The position numbers were made by a program, and so were the translations under genes. Shown here in pieces: positions 1,881 to 12,470 of a stretch of 33,367 nt of DNA. Source of the DNA: Candidatus Poseidoniales archaeon (lineage in GTDB: Archaea; Thermoplasmatota; Poseidoniia; Poseidoniales; Poseidoniaceae); NCBI GenBank assembly GCA_003602645.1, contig QQSI01000009.1, forward strand, positions 1-33,367, given 5' to 3'. The stretch's first letter is position 1; every line of letters starts with the position of its first letter. The notes under the pieces are model-generated. The model searched no databases, was not told the origin of the DNA, and was given only the letters and a program-made list of their open reading frames with translations.

Positions 1881-2618
1881 TCAGTGGCTGAGTGCCTCAT
1901 CCAAATCCAATTCGCCTCGAGCCACGGCCAGCGCCATATCTGCCGAGATGGTTTTCCGGCCATTGCTTCGTTTCCGGCTTTGGCGTTGAATTTCCTTCAG
2001 TTGCCCCTCGCTTGGTGTAATGTTTCGTTGCTCCCAAACCCTCTGGCCCCGAATCATTGCAATTCGAACGGCGGAAATGACGTGATTATGGCGCAGCAAT
2101 CCTCTTGATGTTCTCGTTTCGTCAACCTGTTCAATCAGTAGATTTGCTGCAATGCATTCGTTGATGATCTGGTCGCGCAAGAGCGGCGCTCCATCGCCAA
2201 TCCGAACCCTACTTTGTTGATGCCTGACCGCTGATTTGATTGTTTTAATGTGTGCAGTCACCTTGTCAATTGATTCCAATTGAGACATACCCAAGACGAC
2301 ACCATCCCCCATCCATGCAATGCCAGGGCGAGGACCGGGGTCAATACCAAACGTCAATTCATGAATTTGGTGGACACCTCGTAAATGAAGCAATGCTCTT
2401 TGGATGGCTCCGTCGATGTCTTCTAAAGATGCGGCCACAGGCCAACCTTGGTCCTCTCGGCCCACAATTTCCACATCGCTTGACATCCATACGGTTTCTG
2501 CGTGGGAAAGAGGTGCGTCATGGTCGAGCAAATCGAACTTGATGTTTTGCCCCTTGAGCGCCTGCATCAATCTGAACGCCAATCGGAAGTCCATGGTTCG
2601 CACTGCAAGCCTTGTCAC
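1881..2618 (-). CDS. RuvC/RNase H-fold predicted nuclease-like protein
   Basis: This 245-residue soluble protein has an N-terminal region (1-85) of unknown fold followed by an RNase H/RuvC-like core. The core opens with LTFGIDPGPRPGIAW (Asp93 in the first strand). It continues with a glycine-rich second strand, then VRIGDGAP (Asp142), EQVDE (Asp166) and a helix HNHVISAVRIAMIRG that resembles the last RuvC motif with His in place of an Asp. From the GIDPG signature and order of acidic residues I infer a RuvC-like resolvase or YqgF-like nuclease relative. Conserved archaeal proteins of this layout exist but I do not know a proven function. The start is GTG at 2618; an ATG at 2594 is possible but would cut the conserved-looking LAVRTMDFR. 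It diverges from the Hjc-like gene across 129 bp. Confidence 0.7.
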   Translation of the reverse strand: MTRLAVRTMDFRLAFRLMQALKGQNIKFDLLDHDAPLSHAETVWMSSDVEIVGREDQGWPVAASLEDIDGAIQRALLHLRGVHQIHELTFGIDPGPRPGIAWMGDGVVLGMSQLESIDKVTAHIKTIKSAVRHQQSRVRIGDGAPLLRDQIINECIAANLLIEQVDETRTSRGLLRHNHVISAVRIAMIRGQRVWEQRNITPSEGQLKEIQRQSRKRSNGRKTISADMALAVARGELDLDEALSH

Positions 2619-2747
2619 GGGCGGTATTCATCCGGGGAGGTTGAAGGAAGTTTGTATGGCTCGCCTCGTTTCCTCAGGGTTCAATTTGGAATGATCTTCG
2701 GGCCCTCAGCCGAAGTTATCAAGAACGATTGACATGGATGAACATCT

Positions 2748-3431
2748 GTGTCAAGCCAATATGAGCGAGAGTTGCGCCAAGTTCTTGCCGGGGTCCCCTC
2801 GGGTGTTGAAGGCGTCATTCGTTCATGCAGTCCAATTGAAAAAGAGCGGATGAGGCTGGTTCTCAATCGACCATTTTTGGTTGTGCGTGCCGCAGGTTCT
2901 GGTATGGAAGGTACGGGTGACCTCCTTGCTTTGCGCGGCGATTTATGTTTCCCAATCGAGGTCAAAAGCACGAAGGCGGACAAGTTGTACCTCTCGGGCC
3001 GCACAAAAGATCAGTACGATGCGATGGTGAGTGAAGGTGAGCGATGCCACCTCATGCCACTCTACGCCCACCGGCTAAAGGGGGTGCGCGGCGACTCATG
3101 GCGCATCTTCAGGGTTGAAACCTCCAACTTATCAGGACGGTTACGTCAGTTGGAAAAATGGATTCCTGCTTTTCCAAAGACTCGAAACGGTTCAAATTAC
3201 CTCAATTGGGAAGATGGTATGCCCTTGAATCAATTGATTGCCTTGCTCTGTTCAACTGCGGGAGCAGAAGCGGCCAGTCTCGCCGGGTTGACCGCTCGTT
3301 CGGCAACCGTTTCACCGAGCGCGCTTCCCGATACCGCACCAGACGTTCCTCAACCTGCAGCCCTTTCACCCGTGCTCCGTGGGCGTACGCAAACCAACGT
3401 TTTGGCAGAGTTAGCCCGCAGACGGTCTTAA
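2748..3431 (+). CDS. hjc: Holliday junction resolvase Hjc-like, with extended C-terminus
   Basis: This is a PD-(D/E)XK endonuclease predicted to resolve four-way DNA junctions during recombination and fork repair. The archaeal Hjc signature is present: YERELRQVL near the N-terminus (acidic/basic helix), VVRAAGSGMEGTGDLLAL (Asp58 metal ligand, with the Ser-rich loop), FPIEVKST (Glu71 and Lys73), then LYLSGRTKDQYDAM. Typical Hjc is about 120-140 residues, while this one is 227. The extra C-terminal region is Ala/Pro/Ser-rich and looks disordered (SPSALPDTAPDVPQPAALSP), ending in a basic ELARRRS. The GTG at 2748 is the only plausible start, because an in-frame TGA lies just upstream at 2739-2741. 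It converges on the site-2 protease gene with a 5 bp gap. Confidence 0.82.
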   Translation: MSSQYERELRQVLAGVPSGVEGVIRSCSPIEKERMRLVLNRPFLVVRAAGSGMEGTGDLLALRGDLCFPIEVKSTKADKLYLSGRTKDQYDAMVSEGERCHLMPLYAHRLKGVRGDSWRIFRVETSNLSGRLRQLEKWIPAFPKTRNGSNYLNWEDGMPLNQLIALLCSTAGAEAASLAGLTARSATVSPSALPDTAPDVPQPAALSPVLRGRTQTNVLAELARRRS

Positions 3432-3436
3432 CCGGG

Positions 3437-4894
3437 TCAAAGATACGGTACGGCGATGATGAAGATCAGCATCATCAACAAGGCAAGTGAGGAAAAACTC
3501 GAGGCCTTACTCGAAATATGATCGATCCACATGGGGTGTATGTCCCATAATTTTGTTTTCTTTCCTAGCTTTTTGACCGCTGAGAGCGTACCATGGAGGG
3601 TGTCTTTGAACAGATGGCCTCCATCGAATGGTACCATTGGAATCAAATTAGTAAATCCGAGAAGGATGTTCACCCACATAAGCCAGAAAAAGAAGTTGAT
3701 CAAGAACAACAAACCGCTGATTCCAATCACTGCACCAAGCCCTTCATCTGCGGTTGTCAGCATGGCTTCTTCCATTGGGTACATCGAGACGCCTTGGAGT
3801 TGGAACGGTACAATCATCAGCGTCAAAATGTGGATTGGGGCATAAATGGATTTGACCAATGTACCGCCCTCGAAACGAGGTGAGAACGGGCCGGCCAAGC
3901 GATCGATGCCCTGGGTCCCCTCACTCAAGCCTTCAACACCCAAAAACGGATCTCCTGGCTGAATGTCGAATGCTTCTAAATTGGCTTCGGACCACCCCAT
4001 ATCTTGGTGATAGAGGTACTTATCAGCAAAAACAATCGTCAACTGCTCTTTTTCTCCATTGGCGTGAATGACGTCCATTGTGACGCTGTCGTTTGCTTGA
4101 TAGAGTTGCATTTGATCTCTGAAACCATCCATTCCAATGACTTCTGTTCCGTTGATGGCGGTGATGATGTCCCAAGGCTCCATGCCAGCTTTTTCTGCTT
4201 CCCCATCAACGATAATGGCGCGTGCGTGTGGATGAGGGGTTGTTGAGATGGCTTGACCTGCTAATCCTCCAAGCATGAGAAGGCAAACAAAGGCGGCAAA
4301 GAGGTTGGTTGCTGGACCTGCAGCAAACATGCGCATGCGTTCTCTACGCGGGGCACGTTGCAGTTCCTCGTACTGGGGTTCAGCAAAGGCGCCAAGCGGT
4401 AAAGGGCCAAGTTGTAACAATCCAAAGGCACGGATGCGCATGCCGTGAGCTCGGGCCAGCAAACCATGTCCAAATTCATGAATGACAAGGGCGACAATGA
4501 AGGCCATTGCCCCCCAACCAAGGGGAATCATTGGGTTGATGCCGGGTATAGCGACAAGTTCACTCGCAGTTGGTGGGGCTGTTGTTGGAGGCGATAATAG
4601 AGCTCCAACGAAGGCAAGCCCCATCAGCAATCCGACAAGAAGCATTGATCCTACGCACAGCCATAAGGCCATTTCTCCGTAGATTCTCCAGAACTTTCTC
4701 GGCCTCGAAACCGTTTCCAATGCCTTCAGACCATAGGTGCCCCGCACCATCAATACAAATCCGAAAACACGGCTTGCGTTCCACTTGTCCAACGTACCAT
4801 TTCGTTCCCAAGCACGCAGAAGAATGTACCACAGCAACACAAGGAGCAGCAAGAGTCGCCAATCGGCTTCAACCGACCCCCACGCACCATCCAT
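3437..4894 (-). CDS. Site-2 protease (M50) with PDZ domain
   Basis: This is an intramembrane zinc metalloprotease of the RseP/S2P type, which cleaves membrane-embedded regulators after a first cut outside the membrane. The zinc motif HEFGH is at residues 139-143 of the chosen reading (VALVIHEFGHGLLARAHGM), and the third ligand motif is MVPFDGGH (Asp424). A PDZ domain lies between them at about 230-320 (AEKAGMEPWDIITAINGTEV). There are multiple TM helices on both sides and a terminal helix (LALLMMLIFIIAVPYL). The ORF track begins at a TTG at 4957; I prefer the ATG at 4894 (485 residues, MDGAWGSVEADW) because it directly precedes the first TM helix. That start leaves 94 bp to the divergent gene. 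Substrates are unknown. Confidence 0.85.
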   Translation of the reverse strand: MDGAWGSVEADWRLLLLLVLLWYILLRAWERNGTLDKWNASRVFGFVLMVRGTYGLKALETVSRPRKFWRIYGEMALWLCVGSMLLVGLLMGLAFVGALLSPPTTAPPTASELVAIPGINPMIPLGWGAMAFIVALVIHEFGHGLLARAHGMRIRAFGLLQLGPLPLGAFAEPQYEELQRAPRRERMRMFAAGPATNLFAAFVCLLMLGGLAGQAISTTPHPHARAIIVDGEAEKAGMEPWDIITAINGTEVIGMDGFRDQMQLYQANDSVTMDVIHANGEKEQLTIVFADKYLYHQDMGWSEANLEAFDIQPGDPFLGVEGLSEGTQGIDRLAGPFSPRFEGGTLVKSIYAPIHILTLMIVPFQLQGVSMYPMEEAMLTTADEGLGAVIGISGLLFLINFFFWLMWVNILLGFTNLIPMVPFDGGHLFKDTLHGTLSAVKKLGKKTKLWDIHPMWIDHISSKASSFSSLALLMMLIFIIAVPYL

Positions 4895-4988
4895 GGTGCG
4901 GCCAAGATGTCTTCTGCCTTCAACCTTAAGCGAAATGGCTTGAAGGTTGATGAACAAAGTTGAATATGGTTAGAGTCGACCATCAAGC

Positions 4989-5531
4989 ATGGTGTCCCAC
5001 AAATTTGCTCTTGAGGCTTGGTGTGAAGAGACATGGGGTCAAACTCCGGTCGATATATCGGAATGGGCAGCACATGATGATGTGCTTCAGGTTTTCATCA
5101 GACTCAATCGTGGCGTCCTCATCGCTGATTTCGCTATGGATGTTGACGGCACATTGCAATGTGAGGAGCATCTCCACATCCCACAAGATCGATGGAATCC
5201 AGGCTCAATTCAAGCCCATAGAACAAGCGAGGGCAGAGTAAGGTTTCGCCATCGGTCTTCCGAAATCGTTCTTTCTGCACGCCTTAGAGCACCCGAATGG
5301 GGTCAAGCATTGCTCGAACAATGGTTGATCGACCAGCGCGGGGAGGCATTGAAGCCGAAAGACCGCAGTCAACGGTTAAGCAGCATCAATCGAAGCAAGT
5401 TGAGCATCGAAAGAAACCTCAATCAAGCACGGCTCACCCATGCAAAATCTGAACTTGAACTCACAAAAGAACGTTTGACCTCAGCGGAGCGTGGCCTAAA
5501 CTCATCGCGCAGGTCCATCGAAGAAGAATGA
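4989..5531 (+). CDS. Hypothetical protein with C-terminal coiled coil
   Basis: This 180-residue protein is of no family I recognise. Residues 1-115 look like a small globular domain with alternating strands (LQVFIRLNRGVLIADFAMDVDG, EGRVRFRHRSSEIVLSARL) and several Trp residues. From about 125 onward the sequence is charged and helical (ERNLNQARLTHAKSELELTKERLTSAERGL), consistent with a coiled coil and possible oligomerisation. There is no signal peptide or TM helix, so it is probably cytosolic. The start ATG is 94 bp from the divergent site-2 protease start. The stop TGA directly abuts the stop of the opposite-strand diadenylate cyclase gene (TGATCA junction), so there is no spacer for a separate terminator. 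Confidence 0.65.
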   Translation: MVSHKFALEAWCEETWGQTPVDISEWAAHDDVLQVFIRLNRGVLIADFAMDVDGTLQCEEHLHIPQDRWNPGSIQAHRTSEGRVRFRHRSSEIVLSARLRAPEWGQALLEQWLIDQRGEALKPKDRSQRLSSINRSKLSIERNLNQARLTHAKSELELTKERLTSAERGLNSSRRSIEEE

Positions 5532-6380
5532 TCAACTCAACCGCACTTTGTACCGGTCCCTACCACCCGCGTACAACGTAATGCTTCCAGTTGATGAAAC
5601 ACAAATCGCCACTCCACCTGTGAGCTGCGAGATAGCGCGAGCGGCGAGGTGACGTCCACCTTCTCCTGCTTTTGTGCTCACGCCCGCAGGCACCTGAATG
5701 TAACGACCTGCATCACTTGCTACACCTTCTTTATTGAACAATATCGCACCGTCAAGCCAAGCGAATTCAGCAAGGGTTTCATGGTTCGCTTCATCAAGAA
5801 TCGTGCGTTTTTCCGCTGGATGTCCTTTGAACGGGTTCAGCACGAGCGCTGTCGAGTGTTTACGAAGTGAAGGCAGGGCGCCAATTGCAAACAAAGCGCC
5901 AACAGCATGCCCTTCTCTCCCCCTTCCACCAAGGTGGCGAGCCAATTTCATTAATTGTGTCAACACTTCGAGATCGATGTTGAATTCTTGAGCAAGGTTC
6001 GCAAAACGATTGGTGTTGAGCATTGTTGTATCAATCGCCATAACGCCGTCAATTGGTTCTGCCAACACAACCAGCAGTCGCTCACCTCGCGACAATCGGC
6101 CTTCCCCGATGCCTTGCAGGACAAGATCATGCATCTGGTTGAGTACGCCAAGGCCCTGAGCGGTCAGGCTTTCTTCGAGCAGGCTGCATTCGATGCCAGC
6201 CTCAATTAGTGTTTCAGCCACTCGATTTTGACTTGTAAGGACGGTGAGTGGCATATCATTTGGGAGAATTTCCGCCACAAGGCGCACCTTTCTTGCGTTG
6301 CTTGCCATCATCAACACGGCGTTGAACGGTTTCCTGTCGCCGGCAAGGGTGCTGCTGACCATCGCCGCAAGGTCGACCAT
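5532..6380 (-). CDS. dacZ: Diadenylate cyclase, archaeal DacZ type (c-di-AMP synthase)
   Basis: This is predicted to condense two ATP into the second messenger c-di-AMP. The 282-residue length fits archaeal DacZ, with an N-terminal alpha/beta domain (about 1-125) and a C-terminal DAC domain. DAC motifs are visible: ARHLGGRGREGHAVGALFAIG (147-167), the DGA motif FAWLDGAILF (Asp210-Gly211-Ala212), and GEGGRHLAARAISQLTGGVAICVS with a C-terminal strand SITLYAGG. The usual RHR nucleotide-binding motif reads RHL (243-245), so one Arg is replaced. I checked this against the bases (CGT CAC CTC). The gene lies 9 nt downstream of a macro-domain gene on the same strand, almost certainly in one operon. 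Whether it is fully active is uncertain. Confidence 0.82.
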   Translation of the reverse strand: MVDLAAMVSSTLAGDRKPFNAVLMMASNARKVRLVAEILPNDMPLTVLTSQNRVAETLIEAGIECSLLEESLTAQGLGVLNQMHDLVLQGIGEGRLSRGERLLVVLAEPIDGVMAIDTTMLNTNRFANLAQEFNIDLEVLTQLMKLARHLGGRGREGHAVGALFAIGALPSLRKHSTALVLNPFKGHPAEKRTILDEANHETLAEFAWLDGAILFNKEGVASDAGRYIQVPAGVSTKAGEGGRHLAARAISQLTGGVAICVSSTGSITLYAGGRDRYKVRLS

Positions 6381-6389
6381 GGTTTCACA

Positions 6390-7016
6390 TCACGCAGAGG
6401 TTGTGTCAATGCCAGGCAGTTGGTCCTCGGTTTCCCGGTAGACGGTGCGCATGTTGGAGATGAAGTTACGTTCCTTGACAACAATCGTGTACTCGCTGAT
6501 GCCTGGATCTACCTCTCCATCCAGTAGGTTGAGAATAATTTCGAGGGTAAGGCGAGCTCCTTCTCTATGTGGGTAAGCGAAGATGCCCATTGATAGGGGT
6601 GGAGACACTACGGACTGCACATCCATTTCAGCGAGAGTTGCAAACAAGTTCGCATAGGTCTCGGGAAGCAATGTTCGTCGCGCTTCATCTTGGTTTGGTC
6701 TTCGGCAATCAGGTCCAACAGCGTGGATGATGTGCTTGAAGTTGGTAGCCAAGGCGTAGGGTTCTGTGACGACGTTCTTGGTCACAGCACACGGAGGTGC
6801 GTTGATTTTACGCATTTCAAGGCAAATGTTTCGTGTCACGTCAGTCAATTCTTGCCCTGCTTTTTTGTGAATGAGTGCGTCAAGACCTTCACGTCCTGAG
6901 AGTCGATTATTTGCCGGTGTGATCAGGACATCACCGCTGTGATTCCACACTTCGCCACCAACAACCCGTAGCACGCCCCATTTGCAGGTTCGGGCCATGT
7001 AAAGTTCTGCCATCAT
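6390..7016 (-). CDS. Macro-domain protein (ADP-ribose-binding or hydrolysing)
   Basis: Macro domains bind ADP-ribose and derivatives, and many remove ADP-ribose from proteins or hydrolyse related metabolites. The core is recognisable: GDVLITPANNRLSGREGLDA (the VNAAN...GGGGV loop region, here PANN...GREGL), LIHKKAG, then KHIIHAVGPDC, the helical LLPETYANLFATLAEMDV, and SVVSPPLSMGIFAYPHREGA (phosphate-binding loop). There is no TM helix or signal peptide. The ORF track starts at a TTG at 7025; the ATG at 7016 or 7013 is more likely, giving about 208 residues. A TATA-like CTTGATAAGTA lies roughly 25 nt upstream of that ATG, compatible with a leaderless mRNA. It is the first gene of a likely two-gene operon with the diadenylate cyclase. 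The substrate is unknown. Confidence 0.8.
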   Translation of the reverse strand: MMAELYMARTCKWGVLRVVGGEVWNHSGDVLITPANNRLSGREGLDALIHKKAGQELTDVTRNICLEMRKINAPPCAVTKNVVTEPYALATNFKHIIHAVGPDCRRPNQDEARRTLLPETYANLFATLAEMDVQSVVSPPLSMGIFAYPHREGARLTLEIILNLLDGEVDPGISEYTIVVKERNFISNMRTVYRETEDQLPGIDTTSA

Positions 7017-7152
7017 GTTCAGCAAGAGGGGCCACTCTACTTATCAAGTTCGCAAACCAATGATGAAAACCCGTATTTTTGAGTTTTTTTTGAAAGCCAA
7101 AATCTAATTTTCTTGCACTTCTGTTCCATACTCCAGTGCCACTAAGGCGGTA

Positions 7153-7181: not shown

Positions 7182-10100
7182 ATGATGATGAAGTCGGGGC
7201 TCACGGCATTCACGTTCGTCATCCTCCTGCTTTTTTCATCAATGCTGACGGTGATGGTATCGCATCACCACAACCCACTCGACATCGAGAAATCAGCGCC
7301 AGAACGGCTAGAAGAGGTTTTTGTGGGCTTCACTGCTGAATCAGAATCCAGTGTTTGGAACGAAACTAATTGGCCACAGATTGCGATGCCAGGCGGCTTT
7401 GATTTCCTCTCTGTTTACGATTACAGCGACGTTGGAGTTTTGATTAACAATAACTCAGAGGCGAGCAGAACCATTGGTTCAGCCTTCATCGCAGCAAGAA
7501 ACATCAGCATGGAACGAGTCTTCATTTTCAATAACTCAAGCGCTCCAACAAAAGAAACAATCAATCGCGATCAATTCACAAATTTCTTCGCGGAACCCTT
7601 TCTTGAAATGGTTCAAAACCGACCAAACGCTTCGAGCATCAACTACCTCGTTACGACAAAAGGCATGCCATTGAGGGTGAGTGGTGGAAACAACAAGGCC
7701 AGTTTTGATCAAGAATTGTCTCTGCTTGGCGGTCAATACAACAGCAGTGTGGGTGGCGATTATTGGGTTGATCACGCCTATGGGCCGCTTGCCGGAAAGC
7801 AAATGCAGGCCTTTGACCGTGAAACACAGGGATTCTATCTGGTGACTCGGCTGACAGGTTACACCGTGGAGACTGCACTCGGGTTGATTGAAAAGGCCAA
7901 CAACAGCCTTGGCGCTCGTGGCGTTTTCGCCCTTGACCTTGCAACCAATCGAAACGGCTCGGGCTACAAGTTTTGGAACGATGATTTGTACACGGCCAAC
8001 ACCACCCTCAACTCAACGATGGGCCTTCCAACCACTTTTGATGATACATCTGTTTTCTTAACCAACATCAGTAACGTCATGGGCTATGCCTCATGGGGTT
8101 CAAATGATGGTTCATGGTCAAGCAATTCGCTACCAAACGGTGGATTTGACACGGCCAGTGCAAGCACTTCCAGTGGGTCAAAGCATTGGGATGCCACGCT
8201 TCCCACTCTTTCGGCAGGTGACTCGTTCAATTGGAGTTTACAGACCGACACTAAACAAGGCGGTTCCTCGGCACTGGAGGCTGCTGTAGCTGCAGAATGT
8301 GTGCCTGAATCGGCGCATGGGAAGCCGGGAATATTCTCAGAATTTTTTGACAATACGGGAGTGAGTTTCAATGCTGCCTCGATGCCTTCATTGATCGACC
8401 GAACACCAGATCACACCAGAATAGAATCCCAACTGGCCTACACTTCAATGTATAACGCCTACCCGGGTTTAGATAATCGCTTCAAGAACGATTGGGGCGC
8501 TCGGTTTAGCGGGCTCATCGATGTTCCAGACGCAGGGAATTGGACGTTTTATTTGACCAGTGATGATGGTTCAGAACTGTGGTTAAACGATTCGAGTCTG
8601 GTGACAAATTATGGGAGCCACGGCATGAGAGAGCGCTCCAACAGCATCGTTCTGGATGCTGGTCTACATGATTTTAGAATCGAATTTTTCCAAGGAGGCG
8701 GGCCCCACGGACTGACGCTTCACTGGGAGGGGCCAAATCAAAGCAAAGCCTTGATTCCAGCGTCAGCGTTCAAGATCGCAGGCGATCGTCTTCCAAGTTC
8801 CGAATCGTTGCAACACCATTGGTCTTTTGAGGACGGTAGCGGGACGCTTGCCAACGACACTGGGCAAGCCCATGCCGATTTTACTCTGTACAACATGAAC
8901 GCTTCAAACTGGAAAACTTGTGTTGACGGGGGATGCCTCTGGTACGATGGAGTGGATGACTACCTCGAGGTTGATGTTCAAGATTGGAATGGCAATTTCA
9001 CAGTAAGCCAATGGGTTTGGGCAAACAGCACAACGCTACCAAATTACGCCTCTGTGTTCGCAGCAGGAACACAAGCTGGTTCAAACGCTTCTTTCCAACA
9101 CGCGGTGTTCAATGGTGAGTGGCGACTTCACAACAATCAAACGCACACCTTTGGGGCAATGAAAGCCCAAAATTGGACTCATCTGGTGACCGTTTTCCAA
9201 GCGGGTGTTGCAAAACAATACCTTGACGGCGTCTTAGTTCGAACCACAACATTCCCTACTGGGAGCGTGGACACCATCGAATCATACAGGTTAGGTGTGA
9301 ACCGAGCAGGCAGCACTTATTTCGAAGGCATGATCGATGAAGTGATGATTTGGGACAGCGCCCTGAGCGACGGTGAAGTCACATCGCTGCATCGGGACAT
9401 TTACCTTGATTGTGCGGCGTATTCGGGCAACGGCCAAGCGGTTGCAAGCGTTCAACAAACATTCAGCATCGATGAGGAATATGAAAATCATGTATGGCTG
9501 GCTTCTGGATATGGAATGAGAACTGGAGATGTCTTCGGGACATACGAAATCGAGATGGAGGCCTTGGATGTCAACGGGACCGTGATTTCCACCAACATCT
9601 CCTCCGAGCAAGAATTTACCACAGCATGGTCCTCAACGACGATGCGGTTCAACCCTCCTGCAAGCGCGGTTGAACTACGGATCACAATTCCTTTGAATTT
9701 GGTCGCAACCTCATCAGACGGTTCTGTGTACCTTGATACATTCAGAGTGTATCCTATCCGTCCTAACAATGACTGGCTTAACGGTTCGATTGCTGAAACT
9801 GCAGTTTCGACCGGGGGGCGGTCGTTCACCATCGGTACCACTTATGGTCAATCTTTAGTTGCTGACCTTCTTGAAGACGGAGCATCCGGTGTCAAGGGCT
9901 ATGTCTACGAGCCGTACCTGACGGCCGTTGGTTTGCCAAGCGTACTGATGGCAGCTTATGCGAGCGGGTACAACCTTGCAGAATCCCATGCAGCGGCTAA
10001 CTTGCAAACCAGTTGGATGGGGGTGACGGTTGGGGACCCGAAAATGGCGCCCTATGCTGATTTGTTCCATGACATCAACATCATTGATGCTCGAGTGCCA

Positions 10101-12470
10101 GATAACGCATCATATGGTGTTCCGACAACCGTTCAACTTGCCCTTGAGAACAAAGGCATGGCGATGGCGAATGGCTCGTTATTGATTCAAGATATTCAAG
10201 GCAACATTGAGTTGTACACCGGTGGCCTATCGCTTCCATCAGGCGATACCATCGGGTCAAGAACCCTTGTCAACGTGACCATCACTCCACAAAAGACGGG
10301 GTGGATGGATCTACGAATTCGATATGACTCCTCTGAAGATGCGAGCGAGCGAATCATCGAAAACAACCTCATCACACTGCGTTTATGGGTGAATGCACCG
10401 CCCTCTGTTGATGAAATTTATTGCGACTCATCGACCTATGCCCGTGGAGACAGTTTCATTTGCACGGTGGAAGCAAGCGATGATCTCAATGTCACATCGG
10501 TCCACCTGTTGTGGACCGTAGCTGCCAACACAAGCAATCTAACAGGGGCAGTTTGGACGCAGCAAAGCCTCGGTACACTCGACAGTGTGCGATGGCAGAC
10601 ATCGATCACACTCCCGACCAACCTAAGCCTGGGCATGTTGGTCATTGAAGCAATTGCATTGGACCAAAGCCAGCAGGCCACCTCGCGTCTCGTTGATGAT
10701 GTAGCCGAAGTGGTGGATGCGCAGGCCCAATGGTTTGGCCCTTATGTCGAAGGTGTTGACCCTGCATCATGGTCCGGTGCAACGCCGCTTCCATACGCAC
10801 CATCCGGGGGAATCGAACGAGGCAAACTCACATCGCTTAGGGCATGTGTATTGGATGCTGATCACAACCCGGAACTGGACAATGCCTCAATCCTCGTGTC
10901 GAGAGGGCTGGTCAGTCACCTCACGCATGCACCTCAAGTGGATTCAAACCACCATTGTTACCTTGGTACGGTTTTGCTGCCAAAAGGAGATTCATTGGAG
11001 GCCATTTCATTTGAGGTCCGTGCTCAAAGCGGCGCATTGCTGAGTTCCCGCCTGATTGGAGTGGTTGATGTCGCACCGGTTGCAGAGTTGACTCTTGTTG
11101 ACAGCAACAACGTCACACTCGACCGAGTCTTAGGCGGTGGTGGTGAATACCTGCAAGTACATTTCAGCGACGAGGATGATCCTGGTACATCAGTGACCGG
11201 TGATTTATCGATCGAGTGGCCCGGAGCGACACCATTTGTTCTCCCGGTGGATGTTTTTGACATCAATGAGCCGTTTATTGTTGAATTACCGGCTCCGAAT
11301 CAACCGCTTGAGTCTGGGGAATTACGAGTTCAAATTGATGCCACAGGCCGGCATGGTGCAACCCTTCGTTTGGAAGAACAATTTACATTCCTTCTTTCCC
11401 CACCGATTGTTATTGAATCGGCTGCATGTGATTCGGACGGTATTGCACAATCGCTCCGCTTTGGAGAATCGCTTGTGTTGTACGCTCTTGTGGACAGCGA
11501 GCGTCCACTGGAGTTCATCCGAGTTTCAATGTCTCAATTAGGTTGGTCAGTCACGGCTCCAATGCTTGTGGAGGCGAGTGAAGATGATGTCCCTTCACAA
11601 TGCCTCCAACACTCAATTGAAGAGGAGAGCGATGTCACATTTGTTGCCTTCCGATTGAGGTTGGATGGCTCTTTTATTGATGGTGAAGGTCAAATTTCTC
11701 TTATTGTGAAGGACATCGACGGCCTTTCTAGCACTGAAACGATGACCATTAATTTCTTCCACGCCGCCCCAACGCTGACGATGCCCCCAATGGTTAACTC
11801 AACGGCAGGTGATCGCATTGAACCTGTTGCCTATGTCAGCGACCTCGATGGCCTTACCGATGTTGATTGTCGTGTAGAAACGCTCGACAACGGAACCTCA
11901 CTAGCAAATGTATCTGTTGAACCACAGGTCGATGCTCCGTCATCCCTCAACGGTTCACTTGCTTTTGTGTTCCCAACAACCCCAGCTTTAGCAAACACAA
12001 CCCTCTCCTTCACCTTCACTTGTATCGATAGTTGGGGTCAATCTGCCTCTGTATCTTCGACGGTATTCGTTGAAGCACCACCTCCGTGCATTGATTGTAA
12101 GGATCTCCCATCAGATGAGAACGATGTCCAAGATTTCGAACTTAGTGCCCGGTTGGTGATTGGCATCGCCCTTCCTTTGCTACTTCTTTTCTCAATGAGC
12201 GTGATTGTGTTGTCTCGCCGCAAAAAAGACGATGCCCCACCATTATGGGCAGTAGAAGACACGACACCAGTGCCTGAATTGGACCCTCACGAGCCAATCA
12301 TTCTGGCAGAGGGGTCCGCTATTCCAGAGGGCTGGTCCTCTGAAGCATACCACTTATGGCTTGAAGGCGATCGTCCTGAAGGCTGGAATGAAGAGCAATG
12401 GTCTTCTTTTGTCGAAGAGCAGTTGTCCTTCTTCTCTCAAATTCCAAGTGATGTGGCGGAGAAGGTTTGA
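7182..12470 (+). CDS. Giant cell-surface protein: TIGR03790-like, PA14, LamG-like, CARDB-like, C-terminal TM
   Basis: This 1762-residue membrane-anchored exoprotein has a signal peptide at residues 1-26. Residues about 60-330 resemble the TIGR03790 family (SINYLVTTKGMPLRV, MGYASWGSNDG). A PA14 domain follows at about 381-530 (GIFSEFFD, GNWTFYLTSDDGSELWLND), then a LamG/concanavalin-like domain at about 544-740 (HHWSFEDGSGT, FEGMIDEVMIWDSAL). The TIGR03790-like region resumes at about 879-955 (GVKGYVYEPYL, VTVGDPKMAPY), so PA14 and LamG appear inserted within it. CARDB/Ig-like beta domains continue to about 1640, with a CIDC pair before the TM helix (1656-1680, then RRKK). The cytosolic tail is Trp-rich with two PEGW units. 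Carbohydrate binding or adhesion is plausible from PA14 and LamG; no catalytic residues are proven. The start is the first of three ATGs. Confidence 0.85.
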   Translation: MMMKSGLTAFTFVILLLFSSMLTVMVSHHHNPLDIEKSAPERLEEVFVGFTAESESSVWNETNWPQIAMPGGFDFLSVYDYSDVGVLINNNSEASRTIGSAFIAARNISMERVFIFNNSSAPTKETINRDQFTNFFAEPFLEMVQNRPNASSINYLVTTKGMPLRVSGGNNKASFDQELSLLGGQYNSSVGGDYWVDHAYGPLAGKQMQAFDRETQGFYLVTRLTGYTVETALGLIEKANNSLGARGVFALDLATNRNGSGYKFWNDDLYTANTTLNSTMGLPTTFDDTSVFLTNISNVMGYASWGSNDGSWSSNSLPNGGFDTASASTSSGSKHWDATLPTLSAGDSFNWSLQTDTKQGGSSALEAAVAAECVPESAHGKPGIFSEFFDNTGVSFNAASMPSLIDRTPDHTRIESQLAYTSMYNAYPGLDNRFKNDWGARFSGLIDVPDAGNWTFYLTSDDGSELWLNDSSLVTNYGSHGMRERSNSIVLDAGLHDFRIEFFQGGGPHGLTLHWEGPNQSKALIPASAFKIAGDRLPSSESLQHHWSFEDGSGTLANDTGQAHADFTLYNMNASNWKTCVDGGCLWYDGVDDYLEVDVQDWNGNFTVSQWVWANSTTLPNYASVFAAGTQAGSNASFQHAVFNGEWRLHNNQTHTFGAMKAQNWTHLVTVFQAGVAKQYLDGVLVRTTTFPTGSVDTIESYRLGVNRAGSTYFEGMIDEVMIWDSALSDGEVTSLHRDIYLDCAAYSGNGQAVASVQQTFSIDEEYENHVWLASGYGMRTGDVFGTYEIEMEALDVNGTVISTNISSEQEFTTAWSSTTMRFNPPASAVELRITIPLNLVATSSDGSVYLDTFRVYPIRPNNDWLNGSIAETAVSTGGRSFTIGTTYGQSLVADLLEDGASGVKGYVYEPYLTAVGLPSVLMAAYASGYNLAESHAAANLQTSWMGVTVGDPKMAPYADLFHDINIIDARVPDNASYGVPTTVQLALENKGMAMANGSLLIQDIQGNIELYTGGLSLPSGDTIGSRTLVNVTITPQKTGWMDLRIRYDSSEDASERIIENNLITLRLWVNAPPSVDEIYCDSSTYARGDSFICTVEASDDLNVTSVHLLWTVAANTSNLTGAVWTQQSLGTLDSVRWQTSITLPTNLSLGMLVIEAIALDQSQQATSRLVDDVAEVVDAQAQWFGPYVEGVDPASWSGATPLPYAPSGGIERGKLTSLRACVLDADHNPELDNASILVSRGLVSHLTHAPQVDSNHHCYLGTVLLPKGDSLEAISFEVRAQSGALLSSRLIGVVDVAPVAELTLVDSNNVTLDRVLGGGGEYLQVHFSDEDDPGTSVTGDLSIEWPGATPFVLPVDVFDINEPFIVELPAPNQPLESGELRVQIDATGRHGATLRLEEQFTFLLSPPIVIESAACDSDGIAQSLRFGESLVLYALVDSERPLEFIRVSMSQLGWSVTAPMLVEASEDDVPSQCLQHSIEEESDVTFVAFRLRLDGSFIDGEGQISLIVKDIDGLSSTETMTINFFHAAPTLTMPPMVNSTAGDRIEPVAYVSDLDGLTDVDCRVETLDNGTSLANVSVEPQVDAPSSLNGSLAFVFPTTPALANTTLSFTFTCIDSWGQSASVSSTVFVEAPPPCIDCKDLPSDENDVQDFELSARLVIGIALPLLLLFSMSVIVLSRRKKDDAPPLWAVEDTTPVPELDPHEPIILAEGSAIPEGWSSEAYHLWLEGDRPEGWNEEQWSSFVEEQLSFFSQIPSDVAEKV

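Follow-up and report, generated by a model that had tools for sequence, protein, structure and literature searches.

A conserved macrodomain-dacZ operon of the Poseidoniaceae and its probable relation to c-di-AMP turnover

Whether two genes that are held tightly together in an operon also act in one pathway is the question raised by a locus of the Poseidoniales, in which a gene encoding a macrodomain protein (hereafter macro) lies next to dacZ, the gene for a diadenylate cyclase. A sequence-only reading of this DNA had placed the two on the same strand, 9 nt apart, with a TATA-like element before macro only, and had proposed that the two form one signalling unit, in which the macro protein may bind, break down or modify c-di-AMP, pApA or another nucleotide connected with the cyclase. 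The DNA analysed (33,367 nucleotides; the window) makes up contig 81 in a genome assembly of 1.76 Mb, 85% complete, in which macro and dacZ each occur as a single copy. The arrangement was borne out: both genes are confirmed by Pfam (Table 1), with macro matching the Macro family at 75.4 bits against a cut-off of 22 (E = 4.7e-21) and dacZ matching DAC at 42.1 bits against a cut-off of 27 (E = 7.5e-11), and the DNA just 5' of dacZ is macro coding sequence, with the TATA-like element found before macro only. The true start of macro is probably the second ATG, at 7013, which encodes the conserved Met. In the literature collection searched, no paper mentioned macro domain together with diadenylate cyclase, or Poseidoniales together with c-di-AMP.

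Table 1. Features of the macro-dacZ locus in the window and of the DHH-DHHA1 gene at locus L237 of another genome.
Feature	Position	Strand	Size or sequence	Basis
dacZ, diadenylate cyclase	5532-6380	-	282 aa	Pfam PF02457, motif alignment
Macrodomain gene (macro)	6390-7016	-	208 aa	Pfam PF01661, alignment of 26 orthologues, AlphaFold model
Intergenic junction macro/dacZ	6381-6389	-	9 nt, TGTGAAACC	
Core promoter of operon	7037-7053	-	GCGAACTTGATAAGTAG	Upstream-DNA alignment of Poseidoniales loci
DHH-DHHA1 protein	L237:5679-7091		~470 aa, unlinked to dacZ	DHH and DHHA1 domains, metal-binding motifs

Within the core promoter, the TATA-like TTGATAAG at 7040-7047 lies 27-34 nt 5' of the conserved macro ATG. 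An alignment of the DNA upstream of macro from Poseidoniales loci revealed an AT-rich box at about this distance in relatives from the two families of the order, in the presence and in the absence of dacZ, and placed the AT-rich peak at -30 to -27. At the other end of the gene, the distance from the macro stop to the dacZ start was 8-10 nt in nearly all Poseidoniales loci, and in many relatives the macro stop codon forms the first part of a Shine-Dalgarno-like TGAGGTGA (GAGGTGA) located 8-10 nt before dacZ. A match of at least five bases to GGAGGTGATC was present at the junction in 31 of 51 rows (some genomes being represented twice); in the window only a shorter match, GTGA, is seen. With a shared strand, a short gap, one promoter before macro and an order that is conserved across relatives, the pair has the features of a bicistronic operon, so that the earlier proposal of an operon is well supported and a single mRNA would be predicted to span both genes.

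Conservation of the adjacency was followed in an order-wide sample of 244 Poseidoniales genomes, mostly incomplete metagenome assemblies. Macro lay directly upstream of dacZ on the same strand in 43 of the 44 genomes scored by coordinates, and in the lone exception (G164) a contig end cuts macro, the cut gene still being beside dacZ (L077). A scan of GTDB species genomes yielded 80 DacZ loci, 56 of the Poseidoniales type and 24 others; macro was upstream of dacZ in all 56 of the former and beside it in none of the 24 outside the order, and where other Thermoplasmatota possess both genes they sit apart. The expected adjacency across relatives thus held in every dacZ-positive Poseidoniales locus examined and failed beyond the order. 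Recurrence of the junction in each of these loci is far above chance, and macro-dacZ is a real, conserved operon of one family, the Poseidoniaceae. It has also endured while its surroundings changed: the block w1881-hjc-M50-w4989 behind dacZ has been inverted from one genus to another, and some lineages lack the TIGR03790 gene that precedes macro, with the pair intact in both situations. The inversion breakpoint of this block coincides with the end of dacZ or of macro (window 1881-5531, L063-L102), and hjc directly follows macro on the same strand in several genera of the sister family. On the other side, at 7182-12470 of the window and divergent from the operon, a gene kept in most relatives encodes a 1762-aa protein with TIGR03790, PA14 and LamG-like domains. 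One genome (G199), for which 5% contamination is listed, had two macro-dacZ copies (contigs C3 and C7), and the DHH protein discussed below was not found there.

In an alignment of the window DacZ with 30 others, the DGA active-site motif (LDGAI) and GGRHLAA were intact and shared with other Thermoplasmatota DacZ; these motifs suggest that the protein makes c-di-AMP. The best named model for it was NF041371, the NCBIfam equivalog for haloarchaeal DacZ (E = 1.6e-18, residues 21-265), at 67 bits against a cut-off of 430, a shortfall that concerns the haloarchaeal equivalog for which the model is named and not the wider DacZ class. All other aligned proteins read GGRH or GTRH where DacZ of G066 (L274/L069) reads GGREL.

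The macro protein was modelled by AlphaFold with a pLDDT of 90.7, and Foldseek matched the model to AF1521 and to the MacroD of Oceanobacillus iheyensis (OiMacroD; 5l9k/5fud), the latter being its best match in the PDB (E = 1.4e-12, TM 0.78/0.85). By fold and by Pfam it is a macrodomain, closest to the MacroD type: as in OiMacroD, Escherichia coli YmdB and AF1521, its second loop is of the GxFxYP kind, and its catalytic Asp, D46, corresponds to D40 of OiMacroD. It departs from that type in the catalytic loop, where all macro proteins have EG instead of GG in the signature N-x6-GG-[VIL]-D, an invariant GREG taking the place of GGGG and a Glu standing at the position of OiMacroD G37. The kcat of OiMacroD, 0.48 per second, falls to 0.13 per second when Val replaces that Gly (PMC5413906). 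Among 96 aligned Poseidoniales macro proteins, GREGxD and its Asp were found in 96 and the Asn in 88; a GPDCRRPxQDxxRR stretch and YPHRE were near-invariant, and this stretch, together with a conserved C-terminal VYRExxDxxPGxDxT tail, further sets the protein apart from the MacroD type. None of 19 macrodomains from other Thermoplasmatota had the GREG loop, 18 having the classical glycine loop (GGG) and one a longer loop, and in the phylum sample intact Poseidoniales macro proteins scored at least 315 bits with their profile compared to at most 92 bits for any other. Given the invariant loop and this gap in profile score to the rest of the phylum, macro is an order-specific macrodomain variant.

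As judged from the fold only, the ligand of the macro protein may be of the ADP-ribose type. Two sources of such a ligand were considered and set aside. A sirtuin partner producing O-acetyl-ADP-ribose was rejected, SIR2 being patchy (24 of 54 genomes) and absent from the window genome and from most of the sister family. The other candidate was KptA, an enzyme able to produce nucleic acids with ADP-ribosylated ends (PMC7050489). It was found in 51 of 54 genomes of the order but also in 175 of 196 of the phylum; because it is almost universal there, its match with macro says little, and its presence shows only that ADP-ribosylated nucleic acid substrates could exist.

The distribution of the two genes argues against a common reaction. 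Macro was detected in 230 of the 244 Poseidoniales genomes, including all 22 genera sampled, and dacZ in 78, belonging to seven genera. On a tree built from four neighbourhood genes, the dacZ state requires four changes, which are read as one gain in the Poseidoniaceae and losses in genus g2, in genus g6 and in a single genome of g4 (G047). Macro was retained in all three losses, and the G047 locus is that of its sister genomes minus dacZ. Neither profile searches nor tblastn found a degenerate dacZ in dacZ-negative genomes, and the loci of these genomes hold neither a dacZ remnant nor a ribosome site behind macro. When macro residues were compared among dacZ-positive members of the family (51 proteins), dacZ-negative members (9) and the sister family (39), 49 positions were invariant throughout, and no residue distinguished the dacZ-positive from the dacZ-negative members. 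Its distribution and the absence of any dacZ-linked residue show that macro is independent of dacZ. The proposal that it binds, degrades or edits a cyclase nucleotide therefore finds no support, the protein being present and unchanged in genera that lack dacZ.

Another protein follows dacZ more faithfully. A search for DHH domains identified a protein of about 470 aa in 25 or 26 of 27 dacZ-positive genomes (the ambiguity being G035, seen only through its weaker single match) and in none of 27 dacZ-negative ones. An order-wide profile search found both genes in 73 genomes, dacZ only in 5, the DHH-DHHA1 gene only in 7 and neither in 159. Macro is missing too from five of the seven DHH-only genomes, and hence their dacZ locus was probably unassembled; the remaining two, G166 and G211, contain a cut or degraded dacZ. 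A clear exception among the better genomes is G066, 90% complete, which has dacZ and no DHH protein; its missing DHH and the GGREL in its DacZ would fit a decaying pathway, in one genome. The Fisher value for the co-occurrence (2e-47) ignores the relatedness of the genomes and is therefore too strong; a fairer tally is that the DHH-DHHA1 protein disappeared together with dacZ in each of the three losses, for which a sign test, having little power with only three independent losses, gave p = 0.125. By both sequence and fold, c-di-AMP phosphodiesterases and their NrnA-like relatives are the solved structures closest to this protein. Co-occurrence, co-loss and fold together suggest that this protein removes c-di-AMP, and the putative phosphodiesterase is likely a better-supported functional partner of dacZ than macro. 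It fits the degradation role that had been assigned to macro, and macro as a c-di-AMP hydrolase was rejected as unlikely both by its distribution and by the DHH co-occurrence. TrkA_C/RCK_C domains (PF02080), considered as dacZ-linked receptors, occurred in dacZ-positive and dacZ-negative genomes alike. A TraB-family gene (PF01963) follows the DHH-DHHA1 gene, overlapping it or nearly so, in 11 of 12 loci (L237:5679-8253, L238-L247), and a dihydropteroate-synthase-like gene lies close to the two.

It is considered probable that dacZ is a facultative gene on the promoter of the older macro, and that DacZ and the DHH enzyme turn over c-di-AMP. A single TATA promoter before macro, with little or no leader, would drive the two-gene unit, and dacZ would be translated from the ribosome site that overlaps the macro stop codon in many relatives. 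DacZ would then synthesise c-di-AMP and the unlinked DHH-DHHA1 enzyme would remove it, while macro, the older gene and one found throughout the order, would encode a macrodomain that acts on an ADP-ribose-type substrate of its own and has no need of dacZ. Since dacZ appears to have been gained behind the older macro in the Poseidoniaceae and then lost cleanly several times, the adjacency may mainly set dacZ expression at the level of a housekeeping gene. Co-expression could also be without selective value, dacZ having landed behind macro once and stayed there by descent, as the single gain on the tree, its clean absence elsewhere and a macro promoter that is the same with and without it would allow. 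Such passive hitch-hiking is doubtful, however, given that the linkage has been lost in no dacZ-positive Poseidoniales locus examined and that the ribosome site overlapping the macro stop has been kept in many of them.

That the pair is unbroken despite the inverted block behind it and the sometimes missing gene before it could instead mean that selection couples the two genes by more than a common promoter. The two proteins might catalyse separate reactions in response to the same stress, be it in NAD/ADP-ribose metabolism, RNA or DNA repair or the osmotic state, with co-expression selected; a comparable case is the retention of dacZ and mscS2 in one operon by haloarchaea (PMC6741144). Yet three lineages run macro without dacZ and vertical descent can explain most of the linkage, which leaves this indirect coupling about as doubtful as hitch-hiking. 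Somewhat less probable is that macro, with its GREG loop and CRRPxQDxxRR strip, is the founder of a new class of macrodomains whose ligand is not ADP-ribose but some other molecule, perhaps a nucleotide relevant to c-di-AMP signalling, dacZ having been recruited as the pathways meet. A direct signalling unit, as the sequence-only reading envisaged, is very unlikely. The adjacency unbroken through rearrangements on both sides, the binding of adenosine-containing nucleotides by macrodomains and the unusual invariant charged residues in the macro loops would favour it, but macro is unchanged in dacZ-negative genomes and kept after each dacZ loss, dacZ outside the Poseidoniales is never beside macro (0 of 24), and the DHH-DHHA1 protein already co-varies with dacZ.

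The macro-dacZ locus illustrates that genes can share a tight, conserved operon without necessarily acting in one pathway. The analysis presents DacZ and the DHH-DHHA1 protein as a candidate c-di-AMP turnover pair, gained and lost together, in widespread uncultured marine archaea, and because some sister genera have the pair and others lack it, comparing them offers a test of what c-di-AMP does in this group; it also draws attention to a macrodomain, present across the order, whose catalytic loop is altered. With the known enzymes GdpP, Rv2837c/CnpB, TmPDE and DhhP, the DHH-DHHA1 protein shares both domains and the HDNPDPDA, DHH and GGH motifs, and its fold matches the GdpP catalytic domain with an E value of about 1e-21. 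It differs from these enzymes in being archaeal, in the TraB-family gene next to its own and in an extra N-terminal region of about 135 aa without a Pfam match, which looked Rossmann-like by eye and was left unnamed. The closest parallel to the operon is the predicted dacZ-mscS2 operon of haloarchaea, HVO_1660/HVO_1659 in Haloferax volcanii, where mscS2 can be deleted and dacZ cannot (PMC6741144). There the partner is a mechanosensitive channel, in contrast to the macrodomain of the Poseidoniales, and DHH or RCK appear nowhere in that paper, i.e., no such phosphodiesterase partner is named. The two systems are alike in combining, in a predicted operon, an archaeal DacZ-type cyclase bearing the DGA motif with a lineage-specific partner gene that dacZ can function without.
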